Shown here piece after piece: positions 8,893-35,177 of a stretch of DNA of 36,913 nucleotides. The DNA comes from Saccoglossus kowalevskii (taxonomy: Eukaryota; Hemichordata; Enteropneusta; Harrimaniidae), in the NCBI RefSeq assembly GCF_000003605.2, contig NW_003116455.1, forward strand, positions 731,983 to 768,895, in the 5' to 3' direction. A program made the translations under genes and the position numbers. Under the pieces are notes generated by a model. It worked only from the letters and a program-made list of their open reading frames with translations, made no database searches and was not told the DNA's origin. How positions within the stretch are numbered: position 1 is the stretch's first letter; every line of letters starts with the position of its first letter.

Positions 8893-9395
8893 TTTTGATT
8901 ACAGTCGAGCCTGGTAGCGCGAAAAATATACAAATACGAGCAAGGTAAAGCTCAAGCTCTGAAAAATCCGTCACTGTAAAAATACGGATGTGACGTCACG
9001 GGTTATACTATTAATCTACATGGGGAAATGATTTCGAGTACTAAATAACATAAGTTATTACTGTTACGCTTGGAACAGTGGGTTGGACAAATTTCATTGT
9101 ACAATATTGTATTTCCAATTTACTATTTCTTATGCTTGAAGAACTATAATTACACATGATATTCCCTTAGATCAAAATATATAATCCCTACTCAAATAAT
9201 GGGAATTACAATCAACGGGATTTCCTAAACTGTTGCGAATGGCTATCCTGATTGGAGTGGCGATTTCACAAACAACTATTGATTTCAAAATGGCTGCGCT
9301 CACGAAAAAGTTTGATCTCACATGTTTTAACTATTTTTGACAGTGTTTGTGCTGTGTTTAACGTTTTCTTAACTGATGGTGTCAGTTTTGACAAA
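8893..9395. promoter_or_regulatory. Shared divergent promoter region ENSA / PIGO
   Basis: Only 503 bp separate the ENSA start codon (minus) from the PIGO start codon (plus). A full palindromic cAMP-response element, TGACGTCA, lies at 8991-8998, about 100 bp from the ENSA start. An inverted CCAAT box (ATTGG, 9251-9255) lies near the PIGO side. No TATA box is positioned convincingly for either gene. Bidirectional use is inferred from the head-to-head geometry. Confidence 0.6.
9290..9340 (+). other. Short upstream ORF in PIGO leader
   Basis: ATG at 9290 in the strong context AAAATGG opens a 16-codon frame (MAALTKKFDLTC...) that stops at 9338-9340, well before the PIGO start at 9396. If the transcript starts upstream of 9290, this uORF would be translated first. 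Transcription start is not known. Confidence 0.35.
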
Positions 9396-9399
9396 ATGA
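9376..9399 (+). other. uORF whose stop overlaps the PIGO start (ATGA)
   Basis: ATG at 9376 encodes MVSVLTK and terminates at TGA 9397-9399. This overlaps the PIGO ATG (9396-9398) as ATGA. The geometry would let ribosomes terminate on the main start codon, so it could gate PIGO translation. Confidence 0.4.
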
Positions 9400-12300
9400 G
9401 ATCTCACAACACTCAATTATTTCTAATGGTATGGATTTTCACCTTATACGTAACAGCGATCGTACTTTTCACCAAAGGATTTTTATTGAAACGCCTGGAA
9501 ATTCCTCAGAAAAGCACTTGCTCCGACTTTCAAGCTGATGGAAAATTTGATCAACATGGCGATTTCAGTCAGGGATGCTGGACTCAAAGGCGTTTCAAGC
9601 AAGCAGTTTTGCTTGTCATCGATGCGCTCAGATTCGATTTTGCTGTGCCTGATTCGAAATCAGACACTGCCTTTCAGAACAGACTTCCCTTTCTCAGTAG
9701 ATTGTTGGTCGAGAAACCATTACACTCGAGACTGTACGAGTTTTTAGCAGACCCTCCAACTACCACGATGCAAAGACTAAAGGGTCTTACCACTGGCAGC
9801 CTTCCCACTTTTGTAGATGCTGGAAGCAATTTTGCATCTTCAGAAATTGTAGAAGATAATTTCATATCCCAATTGACTGGTTTAGGTGGCAGTATCACCT
9901 TTATGGGTGACGACACATGGGAATCTTTATTTATTGGTAAATTCAAGAAAGCATTTCCATATCCTTCATTCAATGTTAAAGACTTGCATACTGTAGATAA
10001 TGGTGTTATTGAACATTTAATTCCTGAGATTATCAACAATGACTGGCATTTATTAATTGCCCATTTCCTTGGAGTTGACCATTGCGGTCATAGATTCGGT
10101 CCTTATCATTCTGCTATGAGTGAAAAACTTAGCCAGATGAATGATGTCATACGGTATGTACAACTGAGTGTACTCGATGGTTGGCAATGTCGACATATGC
10201 TAAAACATGGCAGTCATGTGGTACAATGTACCTACTTGTATTTCAATCAAGGAACAAACTGGACATCTCGACCAAAAAAAATCTTTATCTGTTTTTCATT
10301 GGACAAGTCGACCCAGTACGATTACGATCTTCGGTCGGCATAACTTTTGAAAACGTTATAAAGGGCAACACTCTCAAAGTTAAACTAGATAGAAGTTTGC
10401 ATTGCCACATTAGGATAGGGTCTGACACAGTCCCTTGTTAAAGAACTGTGGGTCGGGTCGAGATGTCCAGAGTGTCTGGGTCGAAGTGTCTCGGGTATAT
10501 TGTTGACTAAGCAATATATTATGCTTGGTATCGAAGATGCATCTGTATACCAAACTATCAAATCAACCGGATACAGCCGGTTGTGAGACATGACAAAACA
10601 AACGCAGCCAGTGATACATTTCGAAAATAAAAATGCAAAATAAAGTCAATCAGACGCGACAACCACGCACGTTGCAAATAAATAGAACACGTCTGACACA
10701 GTCTCACCAGCCTCTTTCACTCACGCAATATAATTATGCTATTTCCCAATGCACTTATATAATACATTGACGAAGAAAACAACACCGCAAGAAAAATGTA
10801 AATCAGGCTTGTAATTACTAGTAACTCAACTTGAGCGCAACACTGTAAAAGTGGACAAATTCAAACCGGCCATCAAATTCAAAATTCAAACTATCTCGTT
10901 GAATGTCAATCAAAAATAAACTTGATGTTTAGAAAGACAAAAACAACAATAACATATAAATATTACAAACAAGAGTGCAATAAAAGTTGGGAGCAAAGGA
11001 TGGTTAATGCATGTGGGAAAGTGATGAGTGAACTCGAATAAAATTTTGCTAATGTGAGAACTCGCTATATATCTGGTGGAGTACTCGCTAAAACATCAAG
11101 TAAATTTACCATTTCAAAGGGCACCCTTTCAAATAATTGTCTGCAATTGTGTGAACATGATGACGTGCAAACAAGGAACAGAGCTCGTGGTCCACCAAAG
11201 AAACTCGGTGATGGCACCATGAGAAGTATACAGCTGTTGAAAACAGACTCCTTCGATCTCATATGAGCACATTCACGTGGATGATGTATCATTTTCAACT
11301 ATTACCAACAACACTACGATAATAAAGACTTTCCGTTTTTGACATTGTAAAATTCTTTTGTTTTTATGCAGAAAATTACAGTATTTTTACCAAGTAGAAT
11401 CATATTTATTAAAGTTATTGTTCATACATGAGTTGTTGAACACACTACATATTTTGTAATTTCATCCAGCTCCTTTCAGTCACAGTTCAAGACAAATAAA
11501 TGGCACATATATAGAGAATATAGCAAATTATCTTTTTTCTCTGTAATATTCGTGTGTAATCAGTAATTATGAAAATAATTTATGGGTGCATATGGAATAC
11601 ATTTCGTTATTATTCTTAATATAAATTTCTTGTCAAAATAATTTTTTTCAGTTTTTTTTTCTCCAAAAATACGAAAGAATTTCATAATGTCGAGAACGGA
11701 AAGTTTTTATCGTAGTGTTCAACATAGTAAAATGTTGACTTCCTAAAAAATGCACAAGGATGACAAGACTATCGTTTTTCGCAGTAAATTTAATCTTCAC
11801 TCTATCTTGAAGGACTGCAGGAATTTGACCCTTACCGAATCATATTTATGAATTAATTGGGATTCAGCTACCCAGGTAACAGAGCAATATCTAAAGATGC
11901 AAAAAAAAAAAAACATTCTGTTTTGATGCTGAAATTGGCTCCAAGGTTGGATTCATTTTTGAGGTTAATTTAATTTTTGTAATGTTACACATGTTTTAGC
12001 ATTTTAGAACTTATTTTACGCGAGTCAAAAAGTTTTCTGCAGTGTAAGAAATAACGAGCAGAGAACTAAATGAGTATATGGCTTATACTAAGGTATGATT
12101 TTTAGCATCCCTTGTTTTAATACAGTGCACCAATAATTGTCTACCTTTTTTTTTTTTTTTTCATTTTCATTTTTGGAAAACACTTGTATGTGCTTGCTAA
12201 AAAAAGGCATTTTAGACGTCACAAGTGATTGAGAAATGTGAAAAAAACTTAACAAATACTCATTGTTATTTGGGAATGTTTTGCTACTGTCAAATTACTC

Positions 12301-15300
12301 AAATACAAAATGAATCTAATTCTATTTCCAACTTCAGCATCAGATTTTTTGGGTGTGCAGTTTGCCCTTTAACAGAACTGTATGGCATTCCAAATATAAG
12401 TAGGGTCAGCTTGTTGTCTGCTTTTAAAAGAGGTCTTGTTTCTTAAAATGTAAATGTCATTTTACCAAACCACAAGATTTGTTCAGGATCTCTATATCAC
12501 TGTATGTTTTTCTGTTATGTTAATGATGTGCCAAGGAATAAGTGTAACTGGTTGAGTCATGAAAAAATATGTTGCATGTCATATCACACTGGGTTGGGAG
12601 GTGCCAGAAATGCTAAAGAATAATGGGCGAATAATAGAATAATTGTATCTTGGTTGAACATTTGGAACGTAGCTTGTTCATACATCGCCTCGCATCAAAC
12701 ACATTCCCTGGAATGTGTTGATTGCATAACATATCCAGAACACTACAATAAGGGCAAAAAAAAAATTGTTTTGTTGTCCTCAGCGACCAACCGGAAAATA
12801 TGAAATATCGGGTCGCGTTTTTTTTTTTTTATGGTAGGCCGAAATATTAAAAGCTCACCATTTTAAGCAATAAATCCCGATTTTGAACCTCGGGTTGATC
12901 TGTACATATCGTAGTACAGAAATACAAAAGACTGGAAGAAACACTTTGATTTTTGTGTTTATATCTAGCATGCGTTTTATCGATTCCCATATACCTCGGA
13001 TATTTACGATACCCTTAGTTTTCACAAGTTTTCACATTATTATTTTCAATTTTTTTTGGGCCTAATTGCCTGTGAATTGTTAAAAACTGGCTGATTTCAT
13101 TATAATGATAATAATAATAATTCCATGACCTTTGAGTTTCTAAATGCCAATCTCTGTTACATACTCATACATGTATTACATGTAATCTTTTCGAGAGATG
13201 ATATAAAGTGCATGTTACCCATAATACACTGCACACAGTGATCTTAAATAATCATGCAATTATGTGACATGATGAATGTGTGGAAAATATTTATTGATTC
13301 TTATCGGTAGTATTTTTGAAATTGACAATTCTCAACTTGAAACATGGTTAAACAACATTAAACCTAGAAAGATAAACCTAATGGGAAAATAAACACTCAT
13401 CAGCAAGGAACACAGTCTACTGCATGATTGTAAAAGGGTAGCCTTGGCAGTCCTTATAATTACGAGATTGGATGGAAAGCCGAACAATTATCAGACCTCG
13501 GGAAGTAATTAATATAGCTGAAAATTGTAGTACAAATTTTTCGACAATTGCTTTAAATTATTTTTATACCATTAAAACTGTTCCAAGACCGTGACACCAA
13601 ACCAAATCAAATTTAACTATGGTTCTTCAGGCAAAATGGCAATCCTAAAAATCACTTGAGACTCCCCACAACTCAGTTGCTGTCCTGTGATTTTGTAAAA
13701 GGACGTAGAATACGTGTGGAGGGCTGTAGAATTTAATGTTCTGTTAATTTTTATTCCCAGGTAATTCCATATAAAAATACAAATCATGTGAAATAGCCTG
13801 AAACTTCATATAATTATTTAGAATTTGTTTGAATTTTGTACAATTTTTTGATTTGAGTTATAATAGCTGTAGTTTAAATAGTCTTAATTAATCTTGTTTT
13901 CTTTACACGTTTACATGCATGTCATTATTACAGAGAAAAGTCAAAACTTTCATTAGATTAGTAAAGACCATGTCCACTGACCTTATCTTATTTATTTATT
14001 TTACTTTATTTTTACTTTTTTTATTTACTTTATTTTTATTTTTTGAACTACCGGTAATTAATTAATTGATTTATTTGATGTAGATCAGTGGTGGAGACTA
14101 TATCCAATGAGACAGTGCTATTTATATTTGGAGACCATGGTATGACATCTACTGGGGATCATGGTGGCGATAGTGCTGATGAATTATCAGCTGCCTTGTT
14201 TGTTTATTCACCATCACAACTGATGCATCCTGACACTGTGTTACTAAACCCCTTACAGGTAGGTGGAGAGTGACTGTTACATGCTTAGTGAATTCCATCA
14301 GCATCACTGTTTGTTTGTTTGTTTGTCTAACGAAAACAATGAGGTTTTAAAACTTTTTCTTTTAAGGTAGGTTGAAAGACAGTTAAATTGTTGTTTTTCA
14401 TATTTTTATTATTTTCAAATCTACATATTCTAGTCTTTGTTCTGTAAAAAATTAAGTTTCTACTACAAGTGGAACTTATCAAAAAAGAGTAGATATTATT
14501 CAAAACAAATGCGCATGTGTGTGTTATTGTCTTTAATGGATTACTCTTTTTTAGCTCTGCTGTCGACTTTGTCGAGCGGAGCTTATCATATGAGTGATTG
14601 TCGTCCGTGTAAATGTTTTACTTTTTCGACTTCTTCTTGAAAACTACAAGCCTGAATGCTTTGATACTTGGTGTATATGTACTTTGGGTAGACCTCTCTT
14701 AGGTTTGTTCATTTCATGTTGATATCTTCAATTCTCTAATTTTGGTGAATATTTTTGGTAAAAAGTGATATTTTCGACATCTTGTTGAAAACCGCAAGTC
14801 CAATTGCTTTGATATTACATATATAGGTACTACATGTGGACCTCTCTCAGATTTGTTCATTTTGTAATGATATCTTTAATTCTCTAATTTTGGTGAATAT
14901 TTTTGTCATTTTTGGTAAAAAGTGATATTTTCTTCTTGTTAAAAACCACAATCATTTATGGTGAAAAATGATATTTTTGAATTCTTGTTGAAAACAGCAA
15001 GTCCCATTGCATTGATACTATGCATATTGTTCATTTTCTAATGATATATTCTGTTCTTTAATTGAAATGTGCATTGCTAACAGCGGAGCTATCTCAGCCG
15101 AGAGGCTGCTTGTTTGTTTGTTCCTGGGAAATAAACAAATAATATTTTGACATAAATTGAGTTTATATTGCAGTTGTGGCCATGCTCATTAATATTCATA
15201 AAAACCAACAACTTTCATTGAGCTGGTGTGATTCCTCAGTTTATTTCTTTAACTACTGGTGGAATAACAAAAACTAAAGATACTATCATGCAATGTTTTT

Positions 15301-18300
15301 TTTTGATAAATATGTTTTTATCTTACACTTTGCTATTATGTCCAGTGGTCCTGCAGATTATAAATAGGCTAATTTATTTCATTTTTCACACAGAAAAATT
15401 ACAAGACTCTGTCTCAAGTCGACTTAGTACCAACACTATCACTTTTACTCGGAACACCAATTCCTTTTTCCAATTTGGGCAGCGTCATGACTGATCTGTT
15501 CACATTTGAAGATAAATCTCCAAGTAGTAGTTACTCAGTGGCAGTTTTGAAATCCATCGAGGCACTGAGATTAAATTCTTATCAAGTCAAACGGTATATT
15601 GATGAGTATTCTCGGGTGTCTGATGAATTTCCTCATCAAAGAGCGACTGATTTACAAAGCAAGCTTGATGCAGCAGAAAGACTACTATCTGAGGGAAATT
15701 ATGAACAGTTGTCCCACATCCAGAACTTGTATATAGATTATTTAAATGGTGTGAAACACATGTGCCAGAGAATTTGGGCGAAATTTGATCTTGTTTTAAT
15801 AACCTGTGGAATTTTGATGATGGTGATTGCTATTACAAGCAGTGTCGCATTGGTACTATGTCTGAATACCACTATGGCAGTTCCTCAAATTTCACTGACG
15901 CTAAACGGTCATTTAAAATTGATAATAAAAAGTGGAATTTTCGGACTTGCATTTGGAATCTTTGCTGTTCTCCTACATACGCCACTCAGGTCAAATTGGG
16001 CGACCATTTTGTTCTTTTTGTTTGCACTTATCTCAAGTTTGACTTTTTTGTGTAAATTTTTTCTACTCGACAAATCATGTAAATTCAAACAGGTTTCCTG
16101 GGAGTCATTTATGGCAACAGTGTTGATGCTTTTTTATGCTGTAGCGATGACATCAAACAGTTACGTGGTACGCGAAGACGATGTGTGCGTATTTCTCATA
16201 CATACATTATTATTAACTGTATTTCTGTTGAATGTGAAGTATACAAGGACTAAACGGAAGTCTACTAGGAAATGGGATCTTGGAGTGTGGCTCACTCAGC
16301 CATTATCCAGAGTTATGTTTATAATATTAATAATTAGTGCTGCTGTGCGCCTGAGTGCACATTTCCGGGTATGCAGGGAAGAGCAGTATCCCGCATGCGA
16401 AAGTTCAGCATTCGCGCAATCACTGTCTAGTTTGCCACCTGCGCAAATCGTCTTCAAAAACATGCGATACTTTTTGTCACTTGCTTGTGTTAGTGTATTG
16501 CCTTTAGGTCTGCGTTTCTGGATGAGTCACTATGGCAACCTCAATGGATCATCCGCAGCTGTAACTTATGCGATCTACGGGTTACCCCTAGCAGCAGTGT
16601 GTGCGTCCTTCTACTGGGCATTGCAAGCCCTGCCTGATAAAACTGTGGATAGTCTCCCAGTGTGGCAGCAAGTTTTACTTCCAAGGATTGTGTATTCTGT
16701 ATTTGCTGTGGGTATCATTATAGTACTGTGGAAACCTCTAACTGTGTATGTGATTCACAGAGGAGAAAAAAAAAGAAACTCTAATTCTGAATCTGCATCA
16801 CTGGAGATACATCAAGATGAAGAACATGAAGTTGTGAAGAAAGTTTTTAAAAAGATGAAATCAAACTGGAAGAAACCATCAAACGACTTCAGCTCAGACA
16901 GCAGTGTACCCATGGTGTATGGCCTCGCTACGGTATACTCTGCTAGTTACTTATTGTTGGTAACTATTTTTATACTGGTATTGACAATACTCCTCGGTGA
17001 TGGGTTTGCTCCAGCCATGCTGCTGCTTTCTGTACAAATGTTTTTCTTGTTGGAATTATATGCTGTTATCTCTCATGTTAAGTTCAGGGATTCAGGCAGC
17101 TCAAAAGTCGGTAAGTAACTAAGTTCTGATTGTATGTTCAGTGACATTTAGGCCAGACTTTTATTATCCCTTGTTTCGCAAACCCGTCGAATGAACAGGA
17201 GCCGAAAATGAAATAAAAATATAATTTTATTTCAGCATAATTTCTCGCGCCTGCCGACTTGTAAATGCAAAAGGTTACTAAAAAAACTAATTTTTATCTT
17301 CATTTTTTTCACCGCCCGCCGCATAACAAATCTAAGTTGCATTTTCGTGGGAGTATCATGATCAAAGTACCAAATTAAAGTCTCGCGCAGATGAGAAACA
17401 AGGTTATACATGATGGAATAAAATTTTATTTCATTTCTTCTCTTCGATTAATGATCTCACTTACAATTCTTTGAAAATCACACAAATCTAATTTTTTTCC
17501 CGCCCTCCTCAAAAAAATTGCCTTATAAAAACTCGCAAGAAGATATAACTCTCAGGGCCAAAAATGGGCCTTTCAGTTTTTTATCCAACGATTTGTTTAA
17601 AAGGGGCACTATTGTTAGAACTGCACACATGGTGAGAACTCTCACAAAAATGAATGTTCACTTATTGATTGCGACTAGTTTTAAGAGCCCTACTAAAAAT
17701 CAGTGGCACATTTACTGACAAGCATGTAAATTCTAACTTGTAAATAGGTGATTTAACATTCAACTGCGAGATCTCGTGAGATGCATGAAAGACGCGCGTC
17801 GGACGTCTGCCTCAAAAAACAAACGATTTGATTTTGAACTCGAATTTCTTTATTTCGTAGCTCACATTAACCGACCGATCTTCGACAGAGGAATATTGCT
17901 TTCGAATACCCACACTTAATCGAAATTGTCTATCAAATGTGTACAGCACATTATTAAGCATGGAAATGTGCCCAAAATACTTCGCGTTTGTCGAATCCCA
18001 TGCGATGTTTGATGCCACTACGATGCTATGACCTTTGTTTGTCTTGTTTTTACGTTCGATTTTACACATAACGTGTGATTCTCGCAGTGAACGGAAAATG
18101 GTCTATTGTCAAGATTTTGTATGGGTCATAGTTAAAGGTGTTTTGTGACGTTATTTTATAGTGTGTAGTACCTGTACTTATAACCAGAGAACAGAAACAC
18201 AATTGAACAGTAGAATATGAAGGCCATTTTACTCATGGCACTGTGTCAATGTAATTTTACGTCGATACCTCATACTAGGTTTTTCATAATCATTACTTCT

Positions 18301-20425
18301 CAAGCAACGCCTTTCATATTCGTCTTACAGATAAATTTCACGATATCCCATGGTCTATCGTTGCTCTGTGGGCGTTGATGGCTTCGCAGTATTTTTTCGC
18401 AACTGGACACCAAGCTACTGTACCATCCATTAGGTTTGAATCTGCATTTGTTGGTTTCCATGGCGACTTTCCATTCTACCTCTACTTTGTAGCGGCATTA
18501 ATGATCGGTTTGAACACATATGCCGGACCTGTGATTTTTACAGTTTCCCTACCATTAATTATATTTTGGCCATATTCAAGAGGAACATTGTCGCAACAAG
18601 ATGGCAGTAATCGAGCAAACGACAAGGGAGAATTTCTTCTTCATGAGAATGAAGAAAAGTTTTCAGTTATTTGTTTTCGACTTTTCATGATGTATACAAT
18701 ATTTCTTGCTGTTAGAGTGAGTATCTTTGACATTAATTTTTGATATCAAAGTTGCAATCTCCCTTTATTATAACTTTATTGGGGACTACTATTTGATTTA
18801 CAAACATGCACGAATTGCAGAATAAAATTTTTCAATGAATTTTCTGAATTCATCAGAATTCTCAGTTACCAGTATTTAATTTGGATCACTGTATAAACTT
18901 GGGACAGGGGTGAAGCTTTGGCAATCGAATGTTTTCGAACACTAGTAAAATGAAATTTAAATAAGTTAGAAAGTGAATATTTAGTTTAAATTAAAAATGT
19001 GATGTTTTGCATTTATTTCCTGCAATCCATGTAAAATCTGACCTTAAAGTTGTATTGTCGACAAAATTTGTTTTTAAGCCTTTGTTTAATACATGTAAAT
19101 ACAGCAGCTACAAAATTGGCAGGACATCCTTCTTGCCAATAATCGAAAATCACCAAGCAGTTACAGGGCTTTGATTGTGATTGAGTTTTCAGCATCTTAG
19201 GGTGTCATCAAGTCACTGATTTGCATGCAGGATTCTCTGTTTGATAATGTGAAGTATTTTTCATTAAGACTAGTCTGGTAGGCACACCAGACTCTTGAAA
19301 TTTTTCTAACTGACCATTAGGTTCTTCCCATTTCAATTTATAGAATAATTTTCTTACTCATGTTACTGTAGCATTCAAGCAAACATCACATACTTCCTAG
19401 GTTAATTGTGTTTAGTGTGCTTTTGTAGCAGAATTCGATCAGCAATGCATGATGGGCTTTTATGATTACTTTTAGTGCAGACAATAAATAATGATGCAAT
19501 GCATCATGTTTTGATTAGTATAACTCACAAACTCTGTTCAAAATTAAAAGGGCTTCCAACTGAGTTTTTAAGATAAGTCGCATCATATCATATTATCGTA
19601 CTGTCTTCGTGCATACTTTGACGTATCTTCATAATAAACTCATAGTCATAACTATTTAATGTAAAAAATTTTGTTACTTCATCTTCATGAGCAACATTAG
19701 TTTTGGCAAATTCTGCAAATAATGGACAATTGAGTAGTTGTGTAATGTGACTTACAGTTAGAAGTCTCCAAGAATGGTATAATTTTTATTTTTACAACCA
19801 CAAATTGAGTTATGTGTTCATACTTGGTGTCTATTTGGTTCATCACGATGGCTTTTACTTCATGAAAAGTCATCAAGGTTGGTGTTGTAGTGAATTTCAC
19901 CTAGTATTTGTAACCATGGAGAACTCTACAAGTACTGTAAAGGGGGTAATTATTCACTGGGTTTTAATTTAGCTTATTTCGCTGACTGGAAAAATGCGCT
20001 AAATTAAAACCCAGTGAATATGTAAAATTTAGCATAGAACACATTATCTAAATGACGAAACCGTGAATTTAAAACCCACTGAATATGCCCGAAATGGTAA
20101 ATCAGTGAAATTTAAACCCAGTGAAAATTAGTCATTTTACAGTATGTGTAGTTGTTTATATTTCCTAGGATATTCTTTTATTTCAGTATTTGTTTGATTG
20201 TAATCTGTATTTTGTTTTCAGTTCCTAGGTACAATGGTATCAGCAGGTATTCATCGACGTCACCTTATGGTATGGAAAATCTTTGCTCCTAGATTTGTGT
20301 TTGAAGGTGTATCGTTTCTGCTTACAATGACAATTATATTCATTATTTATCTGATTCTTCTTAGACTGGATAAAGTTTTAAAAAATTGGTTTGACCAGCT
20401 TGTTATTAAATGCCACGAACAATAA
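9396..20425 (+). CDS. PIGO: GPI ethanolamine phosphate transferase 3
   Basis: Coding exons are 9396-10153, 14084-14258, 15394-17110, 18331-18716 and 20222-20425. All phases join cleanly to 1079 aa, against about 1089 in human PIG-O. The enzyme is an ER multi-pass membrane protein that, with PIGF, transfers ethanolamine phosphate to the third mannose of the GPI precursor. This group later joins the anchor to protein. An N-terminal membrane segment (about 9-28) leads into an alkaline-phosphatase-fold lumenal domain with IDALRFDF (D76), DPPTTTMQR (nucleophile Thr about 122-124), MGDDTW (170-175), [10 protein letters not shown] (223-232) and [15 protein letters not shown] (269-283), which together hold the metal site. 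The rest is hydrophobic multi-spanning sequence ending in the conserved [15 protein letters not shown] block. ATG 9396 is the first in-frame ATG; upstream in-frame codons are open but lack ATG. It is divergent from ENSA and convergent with NGRN. Confidence 0.97.
10259..10470. repeat. Short inverted repeat pair in PIGO intron 1
   Basis: CTGGACATCTCGACC at 10259-10273 is matched exactly on the other strand at 10456-10470. Further inside, an AAGTCGACCCAG block (near 10306-10317) matches in inverted form a sequence just outside the right arm. This suggests a rearranged foldback element of about 210-240 bp. No target duplication was found. Confidence 0.5.
11310..11719. mobile_element. 410-bp foldback (TIR) element
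   Basis: The left arm (11310-11360, starting AACACTACGATAATAAAG) and the right arm (about 11671-11719, ending TTTTTATCGTAGTGTT) are inverted copies over about 48 bp with few mismatches. Weaker inverted similarity continues inward. The 4-bp direct repeat CAAC (11306-11309 and 11720-11723) could be a target duplication. The loop of about 310 bp is AT-rich and non-coding, so this is a MITE-like non-autonomous element of unknown superfamily. Confidence 0.65.
14259..15393 (+). other. PIGO intron 2
   Basis: This 1135-bp intron has donor CAG|GTAGGT and acceptor TTCACACAG, phase 0. Most of it is copy 2 of dispersed repeat R1. It also holds a short (GTTT)n run near 14309-14325. The open frame at 15228-15494 is intron read-through into exon 3 and is not a separate gene. 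Confidence 0.85.
14553..15115 (+). repeat. Dispersed repeat family R1, copy 2
   Basis: From about 14588 this matches 470-812 and is longer, with about three tandem internal units of roughly 150 bp against about two in copy 1. The left edge near 14553 reads AGCTCTGCTGTCGAC and the right region contains ACAGCGGAGCT. These are short inverted matches that may be element termini. The class is unknown. Confidence 0.65.
17111..18330 (+). other. PIGO intron 3
   Basis: This 1220-bp intron has donor G|GTAAGT and acceptor CTTACAG, phase 1. It contains related pyrimidine-rich blocks (CTAATTTTT followed by C-rich CGCCCGCCGC near 17320, and a shorter form near 17500) and a CpG-richer stretch at about 17765-18070 overlapping an 85-codon antisense frame. 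No gene is recognised with confidence. Confidence 0.8.
18717..20221 (+). other. PIGO intron 4
   Basis: This 1505-bp intron has donor AGA|GTGAGT and acceptor TTTTCAG, phase 0. It contains the best-preserved family F2 foldback element (19935-20142), which lies 79 bp upstream of the last coding exon. Apart from that it is AT-rich with nothing recognised. Confidence 0.85.
19935..20142 (+). mobile_element. TA-flanked foldback element, family F2 copy 2
   Basis: The 208-bp element has ends CTGTAAAGGGGG and CATTTTACAG and TA on both sides. Inside is a perfect 22-bp inverted repeat (19952-19973 and 19998-20019) with a 24-nt loop that would form a strong RNA hairpin in the PIGO pre-mRNA. Further partial repeats of the ACCCAGTGAA type follow. 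It is non-coding. Confidence 0.75.
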
Positions 20426-24428: not shown

Positions 24429-25818
24429 TTATATACGATAGAGAAAATTGCCTTCTTTATCATAAAACCGATTTCCACTTTTGATAATTTTCATGGGTTT
24501 TGCGTTTTTTAAGAATTTTACGTCAGATAACTTGAAGTCATATTCTTCATCACCAATATGAGGATCATCAATTTCATCCGTGTTTTCATCGTTATCATCT
24601 CTAATGTCAATTTCTGATATGTCAGAATCATAAATTGTCATATTATCAGTCTTATTTTGATTCTTGATTGCTTTCACTGCATCAGTATTCAGCTTTGTAT
24701 CACTGTGTTCCAATTTTTGATCAGATTCATTCAGTTGTTTTTGTTGCAATTGCTGAAGTTTTTCAGTAACTTGAACACTTGTAAGTGCAATTTTAGTAAA
24801 TGTACCAAGTTGATTATTTTGAAATTTTAATTTTGAATGATGTTTTGTTTTAGAGATCACCATCAGCGAATCAACTTCATCATCAGCACCGCTTTTCAAT
24901 GTTTTTTGACTTTCCTGTTTTTCCTGCGCCAGTAACCCAACATTACTTATCACCACCTCATCTTGTTTCCTCGCTCTCCTTACATTTGGAACATATTTAC
25001 TTTTTAAAATCCTAATAACGGCAATTTCAGAAACATCAAAACTTTTCGCTAGGCGCTTGACAGTCCACTCATCGGGGTGTTCTTGACTCAGGTATCTTAA
25101 TTGTTTCATTGCATCTCTGCTTAAAACTCTCACTTCTTTGAAACCCTTGGATAGTTCTTGTGTTGCTCTTGCTCGTATCATACCATACTGACGACGCCTG
25201 CTTTCTCTACAACATAGTAAACGTAAAATTGTGAATTAATAGCTTTATGCAAAGAAGATAAAAATGTTTATATTGGAACGTTTTGATGAAGGTACTGCAT
25301 TAAAAGCAAATCTCCAATAGATGTGCATTTAAATAAAAAATTATTTGTGGTATACTCTAACATTAAAAAATTACATAATTTGATCATAGAAACACATCAT
25401 CAACTTGATGATAGAAAGCAGGTGTTGGCACAAGTGATAACGGGGGGGGGGTTTACTTTAACCAATGCTTCAGAATGAGATGGTGACCCCCACCCTTGCA
25501 TGCCTCATATGTGTATTTCTGCATTATAAGTTAAATAATAGAACAGATATAGGAGTATGTCAAAAAAATATTTGCCACCCCGAGATTTCAGATGGGTGAT
25601 CTTTTTAGTGCTTACCTTTCGATTGCTCCAAGGTAATTTGGATCATCATGTTTAACATCCTCCTCGTTCCTCGCCACCCGCCGCTTCATGTCATTTAAGA
25701 CTCTCTCATATGAAGTGTATACTGCTGAACTAGATATGCACTTGGCGGACTTAACTTGTTTATAACTTAACTTCACCAGTTGTCTTACAATCATTATACC
25801 TGCGGAAGATGGCGTCAT
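24429..25818 (-). CDS. NGRN: Neugrin, mitochondrial rRNA/ribosome assembly factor
   Basis: There are two coding exons on the minus strand, 25818-25616 and 25206-24429, joined in phase 2 to give 326 aa (human neugrin 291). The family core is at about residues 100-142, including RYLSQEHPDEWTVKRLAKSF and the following VSEIAVIRILKSKY, a helical block like a helix-turn-helix. The very conserved C-terminus YDKEGNFLYRI (316-326) matches the neugrin ending. The N-terminus (MTPSSAGIMIVRQLVKLSYK) is basic and hydroxylated, fitting a mitochondrial targeting signal. A strongly acidic stretch lies at about 260-292. In mammals neugrin acts in mitochondria with pseudouridine synthase RPUSD4 and partners in 16S rRNA modification and large-subunit assembly. 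The function here is inferred from homology. M9 is an alternative start. The splice donor is GAAAG|GTAAGC and the acceptor TTGTAG. The gene is divergent from DCP2. Confidence 0.93.
25207..25615 (-). other. NGRN intron
   Basis: This 409-bp GT-AG intron contains a run of ten G on the plus strand (25442-25451), which is C-rich in the NGRN transcript. Nothing else is recognised. Confidence 0.9.
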
Positions 25819-26228
25819 TTTGAACTAAAAAAAACACACAATCCAATGTGCGTGCGATCAAGTCTTTGACTCGTACAGCTGTCTATTTGCGAGCGTTATG
25901 TTACTACTACTAAATCAGAGGTACGTGTACATTTAAATATAGAATTATTATATCATATTAGAATATACGTTATCAGAAGTTAAAAAACGTATACCATGCT
26001 GCGCAGTGATAATGGACATAGCAATCAAATCAGTATTATCAGAGGTACATTACCTCTGGTATTATAATGAATGAGATAGACTACCGTAGTGCCGCGAGAT
26101 TTCACGAGATTTGGACGAAAGTGAGGCTTCCGGTGTTCGAGGGAAATCCCATTTGAAAGTTTGTTTACCAGCTTTACCGTGTCGTCTTGTTCACTGCATG
26201 TGACTTGAACGTATCGTATTTCGACAGA
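25819..26228. promoter_or_regulatory. Shared divergent promoter region NGRN / DCP2
   Basis: 410 bp separate the two start codons. An ETS/GABPA-type site CTTCCGG is at 26127-26133, about 100 bp before the DCP2 ATG. Next to it is a GCGAGATTTCACGAGATTT stretch (about 26093-26111) resembling a degenerate TCTCGCGAGA element. Both are typical of TATA-less housekeeping promoters. No TATA box is seen. Bidirectional use is inferred from geometry. Confidence 0.6.
26198..26203 (+). promoter_or_regulatory. Start-stop minimal uORF (ATGTGA) before DCP2
   Basis: An ATG followed at once by TGA lies 25 nt upstream of the DCP2 start codon. Such start-stop elements can stall ribosomes in leaders of other genes. 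Whether this one is inside the transcript depends on the unknown transcription start. Confidence 0.3.
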
Positions 26229-29200
26229 ATGGAAAGCTCAAAACCACCAAGAGATGTTATTCCAGAAGAGATTTTGACTGACCTTTGCAGGTAACTTACT
26301 TTTTTTAGTGTATCATAGTAGTACTAAAATCATATTATCATGGGCAAGTTGTTGCCTGTAGTCCTGGTTTGGAATGACACTGACGATGATTGCGGATAGG
26401 CCTCTCTATCCTTGACCTTGACCATTTGCCTTCATGAATTTTCCGTGGTCTGAGAGGTACATGTATACATAGGTTTTGGGCTGTCGTTTATCCAGTAAAC
26501 ATACCTCCGAAACGTCCAGGGTGGTCCTGAGATTTAGTATAGTGTATTTATTTTAAGTTTTGCTGCAATGAACGCTGATTATAACATTTTTGTCTCCAGT
26601 ACTCACGATTGGGTGGAAAAAAAAACATTACAATTCCCCTGGGGGATATTCAAACGGCTACATGATACATGCGTACTAAATGCATCAAAAGTTCAGGTCA
26701 AAACCATTAAATAGGCTGTTCAGAAAATTATTGTTTTTGAATGTCAATTTCAATGGAAATCAAAAGACAAATCTACAACAGCAAACTTAAATAGGGGATT
26801 ACTTCCTGCCCAAGAGTAGACTTCTGTATCAAGTGTGAATCTGTTTCAATCAACTCGCTGGACAGTGTGAAAAACTCATTGTTCGTATCAGCTTTTTCAA
26901 GACTATAGTTGGCTCCTCACTGGTCTGGAAATAGCTATTGCTTTAGGTGTGAATCTGCAAATCTTTCAGGACCATCTGTACATGGGCCGATTGCTGAAGA
27001 ATTGTAGCTCTTTTTGTGTCGGCCTTTAGTCTGTGTGATGGTAAACCGTATGGTAAGAGTTTAATAAACATATTATTAATTGATGACTGTACTTGTATTT
27101 GCGATACCATTTGGCATTGTACATCTGTGTTTTGCAAGTATATTGGAGGAACCTCAACCCTTCTATGTTGATAAAATCTCAATACTGTAAATGCATTTAC
27201 TATACACTGGGTTTTAATTTTGCTATTTTCGCTGATACATGTAAGTAAAATCTGCTAAATTAAATCGACGTGAACATGAAAAATAACAATAAAACTCATT
27301 GTTTTCTTGACAAAATTTGTGAAATTAAAACACAGTGACTATACTCAAAACAACAAAATAGTGAAATAAATGGTTTTACAGTAACTAAAAATAACAAGTT
27401 TAAGTATACCAATTGTCTGTGAGCTCTCGTCTCACTGACTGGTCAGTGCATTAGGATTTCTGAATTTTTGGGTTATCATAACCCAGGGATTGCGTTAACC
27501 CCATATTCTGCTTCCTGAACTCCAATTATTGAAGAAGGACCCAGTTTTTCAGGAAAGCAGGGGTCCAATCTCTAATAAATTTATCCAGGGTCAAATTTCA
27601 AATTCTTAAAATTTTGTAAGTGGGACTCATCTTGCTGAGACACTAGCGCAATTCCATTAATCCATGATTTTGTTTTGGTTTATTATTTTGGTATTCTGAT
27701 TTTGGTTTCATAATTTTTTTTACCGACATGCACCAAGTCTCAACTTTTTATGGTTTAGTCATTATTACACACAGTGGTGCACAATAATATTTTGGGGTAT
27801 TTTGGCAAAATACCACTTGGTTGAAAGTTGAATAGTACATGTATTCAAATACACACTTCCAGTACTGTCTCAGTCGAGTACTAGTGGTAAGTACTGGCCC
27901 TGCCCCTCAAAATTAGGCAAAAATTACACAGGTAGTAAGGTAAGGTTTGTAAGTAAAAGGGTAATTCTTTCTGTGTTATTATAATATGACATTTAATTCT
28001 ATACATATTTGTTTTTCTTGTTTTCTTTAACAGTCGATTCCTCATCAACATTCCTGGAGAAGAAAGAGCTGATCTGGTCAGAGTTTGTTTTCAGATTGAA
28101 CTAGCACACTGGTTTTATTTAGATTTTTACTGTATAGAGAATCCTGAATTGCCTACCTGTGGAATCCGTGAATTTGCCCAAGTTAATATCCTTTTAAATT
28201 AACTCTTGGATGTGGTATGTGTAAAAAATATAACAGTGAAAGTGTTGAAGATATTTGTTGTGCATTGGGAGGGGATGGCTATAAAAAAAATGCAATACAA
28301 TGAGTAGTGCCTACTGGGGGACATCGGACTTTGTAGCAAAAATAGAAAACATTTTGGGCAATATCTGTCAATCATTACTCTGATTTGCAGCCGATGTTTA
28401 TATTTCTAGTTACAACTTATGTAAATGTGAAAACAAAGTGTGTAACCTATTGTAGAATGTTATATCATGGTACATCTTAGTACATCCATGGTTATATCTA
28501 TATCTAGTACTACTTCAGCGTCAAATCAGTGCCTGGAATTGCTGTAAATTTTACTGTTTATCCAACAACTCAGAGCAAAGTGTTCTTTACTCTGTAATTC
28601 TCTAAAAGAAATCTTTGAATCACAATTCCCGAATTACTGTCAGACACGATGTAATTCTATTTGCACATGCGTAACCTACACAGCAACGGGCGAGGGTAGG
28701 ACAAAAATATAAAAAGTCAAAGAAACACCGGTAGACATGCAACCCGGATTATGTCTGCTGCATATTTGAAATGAGGGCAGCTAGAAGAACTATTTAACAC
28801 AGCTGAGAAACACGGATTTCCAGTTGAAAAAATATTTTCAGAGTAAATAGACTGAAATAGAGAATGGTACATGTGTGTTTCGCAGAGAAAATATGGCCGT
28901 GACATAGTTTTTCAACTCCCAAAATGCCCACAAAAAATATGTAAATATTACGCTATAGCCAAAGATAATTTGCATGCTTGTTATCCTTGCTTAGGCAGAA
29001 TAGTGTGCACATTTTCAGAGGCTGGTACAAATTAATTGAAAAGATGATGGCAGTCTTATTTCAGGTGAATTTTTACGATGTGAGTTGAAAACATTGATGT
29101 TTGGTGTACTGCGATTCTGTGTGTTAGGTACATTCAAAAGCTTCCGCTATGTTGACCCCAGGTTTCGCAATATGCGCAAGCGCACAAACGATGAATGCGC

Positions 29201-32200
29201 AAGCGCTGTTCAATTCAGGAACCAGGAATTATTGGTTTATAGAATTGCTCAATGCCAATTTACAGCCGTTTGTAAGACTCTTGTGACCCAGATATTTTGT
29301 GCTGCTTCAAGCAGTTCCACTACATGTTTGTTTCTTTCAATAACATTTGTAGTAAAAAAATATGATTACAGTTTTTGTATAATTTGTCATGAATAATAAT
29401 ATATAGCACTCATTTGGGCAGACATATGTTATTTGTAGCTAAAAAGTACCAGCTTCTTTATTGAACACTCTCTGTTATATTTATGTGTATGGGTGTAAGC
29501 TCCTTGACTACTAATACTTTTCAGACACTGTCCTTATTTACATGAACACTCTCAGAATGTCAATGAAATTATTGCCAATTGGAAAGATTACAAGATGAGT
29601 GTACCAACTCACGGTGCTATAATAGTAGATGAAACATTACAACATGTAAGTTTACCTGCTGTTATTAAAGGGATGTTATGGTAGCAACTGTGGGAAAATG
29701 AGTTAATCAGACATTCTCTAAAAGTTACTAAGCATACTACCATAACAACCTATACTTTATCTAAAATTTTAGATATAGGTGAACACCGTAGTGGATATGC
29801 TGTGTCAGTGTTCGTCTATATGAAATACATGACAGTCCTGTTGCTACCGCGTATCATATGTACTATGCGAGGATACGTGAATTACTTAATTATTTTTCAA
29901 TTGCATGCTTTACTGTCATCGTCGTATTATTCTGAATATGTCATCGCATATTGTTTCGAACATGTGACTGCCATACTCTTTCGAACACCAAACAGCAACA
30001 TTGCCAGCTAAGTTGCTGTCTTGTTCGTAATGCGCATCTCTACACTGTTACATGATTTGTAACAAACCTTTTTTATGAGGGTGTGCTACTAGTATTTGGC
30101 TAAAGGTTAGCATTGAATGACGTGCATCAGACGTGATGTGCATTAGACTGTGCATTAGACATCTTGTTTTGATAACTTTTCCATTTATTATATACCGGCA
30201 GTAATTGAAAGGCAATTACATCATAATCTTCTATTTATATTCACAATGTTCAAGTCCCCCCACTCCTTGTTTGACATCTCCTGTTGAGGTTGGTTTGGTT
30301 CAACTTGTTCTAATCGCTTCATGACTGTAGTACTCTAAATTTCAGGAAACGTATCAAAAATAGAATTGACTTAATTTGTTCAGGGGCTGTTGATTCACGA
30401 CATGCAAAATAGGATTCCAAGGCAGGTCTTAAATATAGTTTATATATTTCTTTATATAGGTATTATTGGTACAAGGCTACTGGGCTAAAGCTAGCTGGGG
30501 GTTTCCAAAAGGTAAAGTGAACAAAGATGAAAGTGAACATCAATGTGCAATCAGAGAGGTACGAGTAAATATTCTTTGTGTTTTATTATACACTGTGTTG
30601 AAGTTTCTCCCAAACTCGGGTTGTTTTTTAGGTTCAAGTTACTGAAAGTATTTACCTTGTTTTATATACCGGTATATACTTTCATGGTTGTTAAAAACAA
30701 TACAAAGCATGTCACTGTCAAACCTGTGTTTAGGGACTTCATTAAAATGATCTTTATGGACAAAGGGGTATTTTAATGATATAATATTTCGTATAGAAAA
30801 TAATGATATAAAACTGCAACTGAAACAAGTTTATTTATGTTGATCAAAATCAAACAACTTTGACTTGAGAAAATTAAAAATTCCTTGAATTCTAATTATT
30901 ATTTTTGGCTCTAAACAAAGGCCAATCTGCAAAAATGTTGCTAAAACGCTTGTCACCTAAACAGTTGGTCTTTTTATATACACAGGTTGCTCATACATTA
31001 TGTTTTGTGACGAGGTACCATGCAACTAGGTTTATTGTTTACAAATTATAATCCACGACTGGCAGGATGCGTGTCGGTCGGTACATAATTATAATAACAA
31101 CTGGACAATAGTCCTGGTCGGAAGCATTTCCGTGGTGATCGCTAATTTTGACTGCCGGTCGCGGCCGACCGCCGCCGACCAGCGTGGCGAGATCCCTGCT
31201 AATAAGGGTCACTACAGGCAGCTGGTCACTAACACAAGTTTGACTGTAGTATCTGATCGTCTTTTCTATTGCCGAGTACTGTTAAATAAATAATAATTCA
31301 GAGAAAATGAATTTCATACAAAACACCCAAAAAGTTCTTTCAGTGAAAATTAATTCCAGCTAAAATATTTTACAGTACTATGCACCATGTGTTTTTAAAG
31401 CATTCTATATCGGTATTTGTGTTTCTAAAAACATCAACATGTGTCAAACTTTAAATTACTGTTGAATACTTTATTTTCGCTGGAGGGATGATTCCGTGAA
31501 AATAAAATCCAGCGAATATACTTTTTTTCGTATATTTCACATTAAACTCATCAAAAATCAGTGAAAATAAATTCCATACAAAACGCCCAAAAATCCTTTT
31601 CAGCAAAAATTTATTCCAGCGAAAATACAGTATTCCACAGTAAATTTTTACAAATTTTCTACCTAATATGCTTGATCAAGTAAGAGAGACCAAAAAAAAA
31701 ACAGACATACTAAAAAATAAAATTCTGTCATTTATTTGAATCTGAACCTGAAATACAGAACAATCTGGAGCTAACTTCTAAATTGTTTATTTCATGTTCA
31801 CCAATTGTAGGAACTTCATGTAGTGAAGTCCTACTAGGCAAGTTCAGTGTTTGTATTTTCATAAATAAAAGTAATTTACTTCTCATCAAGCGTATAAGGT
31901 AAATGGTGAAATAAAACCTTTGCTGAATATACGACTTGTGTTGCCATCAGTTCATGATCTTGTGCGCTTCCATCACACAACCTCAGTGCACAAAAGCTGT
32001 ATCCAGTCCATGAAGATTACTTAAATATGACGGTGTTTGCTAACATTTTTTCTTTTATATTTAATAGGTTTTAGAAGAGACGGGCTTTAATATCAGTAAT
32101 TACATAGACGAAAATGAATATATTGAAGAGCGAATAAATGAACAAATAGTTCGACTGTATATTATCCCATATGTGCCAGACGACACTAAATTTCAACCCA

Positions 32201-35177
32201 AAACAAGAAATGAAATAAAAGTGAGTTGTGTTTGTTTGTGCATTGTTATCACTGTCTATATTAATTTACTTTCTTACCGATCAAGAAAAATGAACAAAGA
32301 GAAGAAAAAGATAAAGCATGGTTGACTCCTATTTTGTTCATACAAATGTATTTCATCATTTAGAAAGAACTTATTTATATAGACTCTGTTTCAAATTTGG
32401 TATTTCTTTGTTATTTTCTTTCAATTTACCCAATGTAACCTACTTTTACATAGTGTCACTGTCATTACCATGCATCTTGTTTTATATGGGGTTTGGTGTG
32501 AGATAAGTATGGTTTCACTATGCATTTGTGAATCTGATGTATTTAGCAACTTCAGTGATTGTCCTTGTCCCAACATATCCTAAAGTGATTAGGGGTTTAT
32601 ATTGACTATTACCCACGGTCAGTGTTTCTCAAACTCCATCAGGATTCTTGATCTTTACTTGCAAAGTAAAATAAATGTTGTCAATATTGTGATTCTCTCT
32701 TATTAGTCTGTTGAATGGTTTCTAGTGGATGATCTACCATGCCATAAAAGAGACTCTACTCCTAAAGTAAAACTTAATATGAGTGCTAATAATTTCTTCA
32801 TGGTCATACCTTTTGTCAAGTAAGTATACAAATATTTAATTTGAAAGAATACACTAAACTGTGTTGTAACATTTATGTTCCAGTAAATTTTTGACCTGTG
32901 TATATTTTGGTCAGTTTAGCTTCAGTAGATAAAATGTGCAAATCTTTCCTTAAAAAATGTACAAACACATTGTGGTGACAAGAACTGACCTATAATGTAT
33001 TTTGGTTTGTAATTTGCTTTCTTTATTATGGTGACAAGAAGTATATGCACCCCATACAGACACACGTGACCTACTCAGAACACCTTTGACACATGTGACC
33101 TACTCGGAACAGCTGTACCACATATGACCTACTCAGACCAGCTTTGACACGTGTGACCTACTCAGACCACCTTTTTTCACATGTGACCTACTCGGACCAC
33201 CTTTGACACATGTGACCTACTCGGACAACCTTTGACACATGTGACCTACTCAGACCAGCTTTGACACATGGGACCTACTCGAACCACCTTTGACACATGT
33301 GACCTACTCGGAACACCTTTGACACATGTGACCTACCCGGAATACCTTTGACACATATGACCTACTCAGTCTCCCTTTGACACATGTGACCTACTCAGAC
33401 CACCTTTGACACATGTGACCAACTCAGACCAGCTTTGACACATGTGACCAACTCAAACCAGCTTTGACACATGTGACCAACTCAAACCGCTGTTAACACT
33501 TGGAACATGCCCAAACCATACTTAACACCTTTTACAATAATAATAATAATACTAAACATATTTATTTACCTTCATGTTTTCTTCCAGACCTCTAAAGAAG
33601 TGGATTGCAAAGAAAAAAGGCTCAGGTGATTCACAAGAACTAAAACAAACAAAACCTAAAACATCCGTCATGGCGGCCACCATGAGTGACAATAAACAAA
33701 TGACAGACAAACAACTAGCGGATCAACGACGACAACGCCAACAACGGCTGTTTGCACAGGCAAATAAAAATGAATTTACGGACTATTTGGAGCTGAAAGA
33801 AGGTCCTGGGAGTGGTGGTGTGAGAGGATCGTTACCACAGCAACCAAGGGGCAGAGGAAGAGGAATGACACAAAAACAGTACAAAATTTTGGTAAGTGAA
33901 TTTTTGATCTCATCCATGAATGAATATTGTTGAGGTCTTTCAATGTCTTTTTCTTTTAATAGATAACCATGTTTCTCTTCACCACAGTACTGTATATATG
34001 CAATCAATAGTGATAGAATGGATTTGTAGTGACATAATACTGTGAATCATATTAAATACCACCAGAGACAATTTCTTTGTAAATTTTATATGACAGTGAA
34101 AATCATGAAATTTTGTAGTAGTAAAAACTTCAAATTGTAGAAATACCATGGAAATCAATCGGTTTATAGTATAATGTAAACTACTGTAGAATAATTTATT
34201 TTCGCTTGGAATTTATTTTCTCGCTATTTTTGCTGAAGGGATGATTCCGTGAAAATAAAATCCAGCAAATATACATTTTTTCCTATATTTTACATTAATC
34301 TCATCAAAAATCAGTGTAAATAAATTCCAAGCAAAACGCCCAAAAAGCCTTTTCAGCGAAAATAAAGTATTCCACAGTATTTGTTGCACACAGCCATATC
34401 GTCTCAAGTATGGAGTAATATATATGTTCCTGTTAATGTGTCAATGTGTGATTTATGTATTATGTAACTCAAATTAAGAAATGAACATTTTAAAATAAGA
34501 GTACAAAATATGAAGGTTGGATATCATATGATTTCCAACACTTGAAAATTTTGAATGGTGCTGATTTTTAAATTGATAGCCCATGCATGTCTTTTATATA
34601 ATCATGATCTTCTTTTCCAGGCCCGTGATTCTGGCAAGGACGCAAGGAGATCGCTATTTGATGGTAAGTGTAGCCAACTACATGTAATTATGCATGTCAA
34701 AAAGTTCCTGTTTGATGGTCAAATCCTAAGATTAAAATTAATGCTAAGTTGCGGCTGATCTGCACTGGCTTGGAAGATGAATTCTGATTGGCTAAAAAAA
34801 CAAAAAAACTTGTGGCGTTGAATGCACGTTCATTGTCAGTATTGTTATGCAAATTCAAACTAGCTAATCATTTACAACCTTCCGAGCCAGTGCAGATTAG
34901 CCCCTAAGTTGACCTAAAAGTTTGCGTTTATAGTTTTTGAACTACCGGTATTGTTGTACAGACGCCATCACATAGATGGCTCATTGACCAAACTGAGTAC
35001 ACACATTCACAAACCAATGTCTTGTATTTTTATTTTCACACAGATAAAAAGTCAGACTTGGTTTCTGATGTCCAACCTGATACGGATCATCCTTTCACCT
35101 CTAGAGCTTTTCAGAATTTCGAGTTTGACTGGGATGCCATTTTAAAACATTGTGAGTTCCAGCCCAAACTTTTCTGA
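26229..35177 (+). CDS. DCP2: mRNA-decapping enzyme 2 (Nudix hydrolase)
   Basis: Nine coding exons: 26229-26290, 28034-28185, 29518-29645, 30460-30558, 32068-32220, 32707-32819, 33588-33891, 34621-34663 and 35044-35177. The joined frame is 395 aa (human 420). DCP2 removes the m7G cap from mRNA with DCP1/EDC4 in P-bodies. The regulatory domain, which binds DCP1 in the family, starts at the N-terminus and includes [16 protein letters not shown] and CGIREFAQ (about residues 38-70). The Nudix box fits the consensus exactly: G132, E138, R146-E147, E150-E151, G153, with [10 protein letters not shown] before it. PKTRNEI and [12 protein letters not shown] follow as Box B. Residues about 237-350 are polar and low-complexity with RGRGRG. 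The C-terminus keeps the family [14 protein letters not shown] motif (371-384), a conserved protein-interaction tail. Exon 2-exon 3 joins by an AT-AC intron (28186-29517). The gene is divergent from NGRN. Confidence 0.97.
26291..28033 (+). other. DCP2 intron 1
   Basis: This 1743-bp intron has donor GCAG|GTAACT and acceptor TTTAACAG, phase 2. It contains family F2 copy 3 (27185-27381). A 79-codon minus-strand frame at 26943-27182 has no recognisable family. Confidence 0.85.
27185..27381 (+). mobile_element. TA-flanked foldback element, family F2 copy 3
   Basis: This 197-bp element has ends CTGTAAATGCATTTAC and ATGGTTTTACAG, flanked by TA on both sides. The interior shares AACAATAAAACTCATT and other blocks, in the same order, with copy 1 in ENSA intron 2. 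It is non-coding and MITE-like. Confidence 0.75.
28186..29517 (+). other. DCP2 intron 2, predicted U12-type AT-AC intron
   Basis: The intron starts ATATCCTTTT, the canonical minor-spliceosome AT-AC donor. It contains CTCCTTGAC (29499-29508 region, branch A at 29507), an 8-of-9 match to the U12 branch consensus TTCCTTRAC. It ends AC at 29516-29517, ten nt past the branch A. Joining 28185 to 29518 gives FAQVIFRHCP, which aligns with vertebrate FAKAVFSHCP. The GT-AG alternative (GTTAAT at 28182, TTCAG at 29524) shifts frame and stops after six codons. The intron also contains two TGCGCAAGCGC motifs and an unsupported 103-codon frame. Confidence 0.88.
29646..30459 (+). other. DCP2 intron 3
   Basis: This 814-bp GT-AG intron is phase 0. 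It holds a small inverted pair (ATGTTATGGTAG near 29672 and CTACCATAAC near 29739) and a short GTGCATYAGAC-type direct repeat near 30121-30165. No gene is recognised. Confidence 0.85.
31300..31378 (+). mobile_element. Family F1, decayed partial copy
   Basis: This matches the right half of F1 copies B and C: a GAAAATGAATTTCATACAAA block, an ACACCCAAAAAG block and TTTTACAGTA at the end. The left half is missing or unrecognisable. Confidence 0.55.
31459..31640 (+). mobile_element. TA-flanked foldback element, family F1 copy B
   Basis: This 182-bp element has ends CTGTTGAATACTTTATTTTC and AATACAGTATTCCACAG with TA on both sides. The interior (GGGATGATTCCGTGAAAATA, AAAACGCCCAAAAA) is nearly the same as copy C in intron 7 and the reverse of copy A at 4355. 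It is non-coding. Confidence 0.8.
32221..32706 (+). other. DCP2 intron 5
   Basis: This 486-bp GT-AG intron (GTGAGT donor, TTATTAG acceptor) is phase 0. Nothing else is seen in it. Confidence 0.85.
32820..33587 (+). other. DCP2 intron 6
   Basis: This 768-bp intron has donor GTAAGT and acceptor CTTCCAG, phase 2. More than half of it is the 29-bp minisatellite at 33063-33529. An (AAT)n run is at about 33535-33551. Confidence 0.85.
33063..33529 (+). repeat. 29-bp minisatellite, about 16 units
   Basis: Head-to-tail units consist of CATGTGACCTACTCRGACCA followed by SCTTTGACA. About fifteen are well kept and the last is degenerate. Units differ at a few positions. The three units before the degenerate end share CCAACTC in place of CCTACTC, showing local expansion. 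The array lies wholly within DCP2 intron 6. Confidence 0.95.
33892..34620 (+). other. DCP2 intron 7
   Basis: This 729-bp GT-AG intron (TTG|GTAAGT, TTTTCCAG) is phase 0. It contains F1 copy C. The antisense open frame 33783-34007 is a shadow of exon 7. Confidence 0.85.
34184..34377 (+). mobile_element. TA-flanked foldback element, family F1 copy C
   Basis: This 194-bp element has ends CTGTAGAATAATTTATTTTC and ATAAAGTATTCCACAG with TA on both sides. It is close to copy B but with a fuller left arm. It is non-coding. Confidence 0.8.
34664..35043 (+). other. DCP2 intron 8
   Basis: This 380-bp GT-AG intron (G|GTAAGT, TTCACACAG) is phase 1. It contains a 152-bp hAT-like element that makes up 40 percent of it. 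Confidence 0.85.
34752..34903. mobile_element. hAT-like foldback element with 8-bp TSD
   Basis: This 152-bp element has arms inverted over about 40 bp. The left begins CGGCTGATCTGCACTGGCTT and the right ends AGCCAGTGCAGATTAGCCC. An exact 8-bp direct repeat CTAAGTTG flanks it (34744-34751 and 34904-34911). The 8-bp duplication fits the hAT superfamily, although the terminal bases are not the usual CAGNG. It is non-coding. Confidence 0.75.

Follow-up and report, generated by a model that had tools for sequence, protein, structure and literature searches.

The window analyzed here, a stretch of 36,913 nucleotides from the hemichordate Saccoglossus kowalevskii, carries in its right part, on the + strand, a DCP2 gene whose predicted second intron begins with AT and ends with AC. 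Our spliced model consists of nine coding exons (26229-35177) that together encode 395 amino acids (Table 1). Pfam placed the Box A domain (PF05026) at residues 14-96 of the protein (E 1.1e-34) and, after it, the Nudix domain (PF00293) at residues 101-211 (E 1.7e-17). Searching the genome (572 Mb, 4830 contigs) with the Box A profile returned a single place, which is DCP2 exon 2. Among solved structures the top match was S. pombe Dcp2 (E 9.3e-72); the human chains among the structure matches start at query residue 98, past the junction of exons 2 and 3, and the alignment used at the junction is that with S. pombe. A first-pass annotation of this DNA had located the intron between the regulatory and catalytic domains of DCP2. 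This is wrong: the intron splits codon 72, which belongs to Box A and precedes the end of that domain by 24 residues.

We compared the ends of the intron with the U12 consensus given in the available portion of PMC2831892, in which the donor reads ATATCCTT, the branch site TCCTTAAC and the acceptor AC. The donor of intron 2, ATATCCTTTT, agrees with the U12 consensus at all 8 positions scored (positions 2 to 9), and the other 7 of the 8 DCP2 introns, all of them GT-AG, agree at 2-4 of 8. The branch site TCCTTGAC is an exact match to TCCTTRAC. U12-type introns usually have their acceptor about 10 nt past the branch A, as is the case here. The donor, the branch A and the AC acceptor were all found where the first-pass annotation had put them (Table 1). 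Elsewhere in the gene, a branch-like sequence matching at 7 of 8 positions, TCTTTAAC, stands right at the end of intron 1, the donor of which is of the major class. We also observed that the stretch at 29509-29524, TACTAATACTTTTCAG, looks like a good major-class branch site and acceptor; it overlaps the start of exon 3 and, with GT 28182 as partner, makes a frame-shifting GT-AG pair.

Table 1. Positions of the DCP2 exons, of the putative U12-type intron with its predicted signals, and of the U6atac genes.
Feature	Position	Strand	Basis or remark
DCP2 coding exon 1, ATG start	26229..26290	+	spliced model
DCP2 exon 2, phase 1 end at codon 72	28034..28185	+	spliced model; Pfam Box A; sole PF05026 place in the genome
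DCP2 intron 2, predicted AT-AC U12-type, 1332 nt, phase 1	28186..29517	+	termini, frame, join enumeration
Predicted U12-type 5' splice site ATATCCTTTT	28186..28195	+	motif count, consensus match, U6atac complementarity
Predicted U12-type branch site TCCTTGAC, branch A 29507	29501..29508	+	motif search
Predicted AC acceptor (intron ends TAC), branch A 10 nt before last intron base	29516..29517	+	motif and join enumeration
DCP2 exon 3	29518..29645	+	spliced model
DCP2 exon 4	30460..30558	+	spliced model
DCP2 exon 5	32068..32220	+	spliced model
DCP2 exon 6	32707..32819	+	spliced model
DCP2 exon 7	33588..33891	+	spliced model
DCP2 exon 8	34621..34663	+	spliced model
DCP2 last coding exon, stop TGA 35175-35177	35044..35177	+	spliced model
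U6atac gene 1	L002:1501-1625		AAAGGA donor-pairing stretch kept
U6atac gene 2	L003:1501-1631		AAAGGA kept; middle part 6 bases longer than in gene 1

The ends of the intron were examined through the reading frame, by the spliced translation and an enumeration of joins. Joining 28185 to 29518 yields FAQVIFRHCP, as had been claimed, and this sequence aligns without a gap to FSAKLFAHCP of S. pombe across the junction. If intron 2 is retained, the protein stops after FAQVNILLN. We enumerated all single joins that keep the frame between donors at 28100-28419 and acceptors at 29380-29526, and obtained 660 open joins with termini of any kind, including 15 AT-AC joins, 1 GC-AG join and no GT-AG join. 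A single GT-AG join was rejected on this count. Seven terminus classes were counted, with 36 joins between them, and 28185/29518 alone among these 36 matches the length of the S. pombe alignment. Taken by themselves, the U12 motifs are not unusual for 37 kb of DNA: ATATCCTTTT was found once (0.16 expected), RTATCCTT 5 times (2.49 expected), TCCTTRAC twice (1.67 expected) and TCCTTRAC plus YAC once (0.45 expected). The unlikely part is their location at ends that the frame has fixed. We estimated the chances by first-order simulation: 2.2e-4 for an occurrence of ATATCCTTT at any of 21 offsets on the frame-fixed side, and 1.7e-4 for TCCTTRAC followed 8-15 nt later by YAC or YAG near the end. If the two are independent, this simple simulation gives a joint chance of about 4e-8 for the donor and the branch/acceptor. 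The predicted class of intron 2, U12-type, AT-AC and phase 1, is well supported by these observations.

Three other ways of splicing this region were weighed. The first would make the intron a dual one, in which, besides the AT-AC pair, GT 28182 and the AG ending at 29524 are sometimes used to produce a frame-shifted, decay-prone mRNA, the ratio of the two spliceosomes then setting DCP2 output. This pair surrounds the U12 intron, 4 and 7 nt outside it, and TACTAAT precedes ACTTTTCAG; moreover, the product stops after FAQTLSLFT, confirming the early stop that had been reported for the nearby GT-AG pair. The donor at GT 28182 is weak, however, and GT and AG dinucleotides close to splice sites are common, which counts against a dual intron, and we regard it as quite unlikely. 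The second way replaces the U12-type intron by two ordinary introns that flank an 11-nt micro-exon at 29054-29064, with a donor after 28181 and an acceptor before 29525, to give FAQSYFRHCP. A micro-exon supplying the missing residues had been raised in the first-pass annotation and was searched for: among gap-free micro-exons of <=60 nt whose donor was a GT or GC within 28100-28205 and whose acceptor was an AG before 29441-29526, 25 solutions proved stop-free. The one at 29054-29064, which is followed by GT, is the only one among them with FR before HCP, and its 3' site, ACTAATACTTTTCAG, resembles a good major-class acceptor; another solution (29407-29417, GC donor) gives FAQHSFGHCP. Pfam Box A scoring was applied to 29054-29064 only among the 25, and gave 111.8 bits, 2.9 bits below the 114.7 bits of the AT-AC join, which is a small difference. 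The exon would be just 11 nt long, its donor GTTAAT is weak, and the U12 donor and branch site at the frame-fixed ends would be left to chance (about 4e-8 if independent). These unexplained U12 signals appear to be a stronger argument against the micro-exon than the Pfam score difference, and we consider this model very improbable. Finally, an AT-AC splice from the same donor to a nearby in-frame acceptor, with exon start at 29512 or 29509 and 2 or 3 additional residues, keeps the frame open but is hardly credible, because such an acceptor would be either 4 nt downstream of the branch A or the AC of the branch site itself, and the Pfam score drops to 108.3 and 107.5 bits, respectively.

We then asked what the genome holds of the minor spliceosome. 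Two U6atac genes were found (136.2 and 111.8 bits, cut-off 33), and positions +4 to +9 of the intron 2 donor are complementary to their AAAGGA stretch. A tRNA lies near the second of them (L003:2523-2595, - strand). One U4atac was detected (67 bits, cut-off 53). The profile of PDCD7, the U11-59K protein, matched one contig three times inside 5.3 kb, with scores of 40.1, 31.8 and 31.6 bits against a cut-off of 27; a stop interrupts the matched stretch in one of these matches. Searches with the U11 and U12 snRNA families were empty (40/36006 and 44/18940 candidates scored), as they were in the control genomes, and do not imply absence. A partial U12 snRNA probe hit 5 places, versus 7 for its control, and Rfam U12 matched 0/5 of them; the nearest of these loci (L013) is unlike U12 by eye. 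In the window itself Rfam returned nothing at the gathering score. As positive controls for U12 introns in this genome, we chose PHB2, KCMF1 and STX6 from the fly/human U12 table that appears in the part of PMC2831892 available. KCMF1 was not recovered: its four hits were weak (38-54%), scattered over four contigs and confined to the first 59 residues of the query. The N-terminal domain of STX6 had no match in the genome. PHB2 was not recovered either: its query gave four exon hits (47-54%) on one contig, and the piece in L004 presumably resembles prohibitin 1. Because these three genes were not recovered, a second U12 intron was not demonstrated in the genome.

Considering the splice signals and reading frame together with the protein homology and the U6atac, U4atac and PDCD7 of this genome, splicing of 28186-29517 by the minor spliceosome is almost certainly the best explanation. 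The donor ATATCCTTTT and the branch site TCCTTGAC would be recognised by U11/U12, and TCCTTT, positions +4 to +9 of the donor, would base-pair with U6atac. Ligation of GTTA to TTTTCAGA by the minor spliceosome would then produce FAQVIFRHCP. From the DNA we infer that this splice is used in cells and that retention of the intron would lower DCP2 output. The proposed dependence of decapping capacity on U12 splicing would hold in principle, because retention of intron 2 or use of the near GT-AG pair truncates DCP2; since both truncate it, failure of intron 2 would presumably be costly. A further step would make DCP2 a gene controlled by the minor spliceosome, in which the Box A frame exists only after U12 splicing, an overlapping major splice truncates the protein, and the level of the minor spliceosome sets decapping and mRNA decay in this lineage; we think this unlikely.

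Several other elements were observed in the window. A Neugrin gene lies on the strand opposite to that of DCP2 (24429-25181, - strand; PF06413, E 6.1e-26), with an upstream exon recognized by eye near 25620-25820 (- strand), and the two genes may have a common two-way promoter at about 25830 to 26229. Intron 6 of DCP2 contains a 29-bp tandem repeat of 14.8 copies (33059-33488), and a 148-bp unit is present in 1.9 copies at 14623-14905. Long reading frames occupy 9252-18743 (+ strand); the first scored just under the cut-off for Pfam Phosphodiest (22.2 versus 23), and Pfam assigned no family to the second. We take these frames to resemble PIGO (GPI ethanolamine phosphate transferase).

With this intron, a central mRNA-decay gene joins the likely minor-intron genes, and if splicing efficiency were limiting, the minor spliceosome would be linked with decapping. 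Gene finders that allow only GT-AG introns would break DCP2 inside Box A. Our literature search, the scope of which was papers rather than supplementary gene lists and databases, found none tying DCP2 to a minor intron, and in the accessible portion of PMC11765398 the DCP2 and minor-intron subjects are unconnected. As far as the excerpts of PMC2831892 and PMC10639083 go, the DCP2 intron has in common with the U12-type AT-AC introns of U12DB and later surveys the ATATCCTT donor, a TCCTTRAC-type branch site and the AC acceptor, and it is likewise not in phase 0 and stands as one among several major introns. Compared with the consensus branch TCCTTAAC in the excerpt of PMC2831892, TCCTTGAC has G for A, and no other difference from the consensus was seen. 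CBP20 of land plants, as described in the portion of PMC5932401 available, is likewise a cap-biology gene with one U12 intron dividing its coding region, but it encodes an unrelated protein and has the intron at another position; moreover, the CBP20 intron is conserved, and its conservation and splicing have been studied, whereas the DCP2 intron is predicted from sequence. The overlapping major and minor splice sites of the fly prospero twintron, in the part of PMC2831892 that treats it, are conceivable in DCP2 too; unlike in prospero, however, the possible major pair of DCP2 sits 4 and 7 nt outside the U12 pair and shifts the frame. The DCP2 case leaves general knowledge of minor introns unchanged, and the intron appears to be a new example of a well-known type, with no new mechanism.
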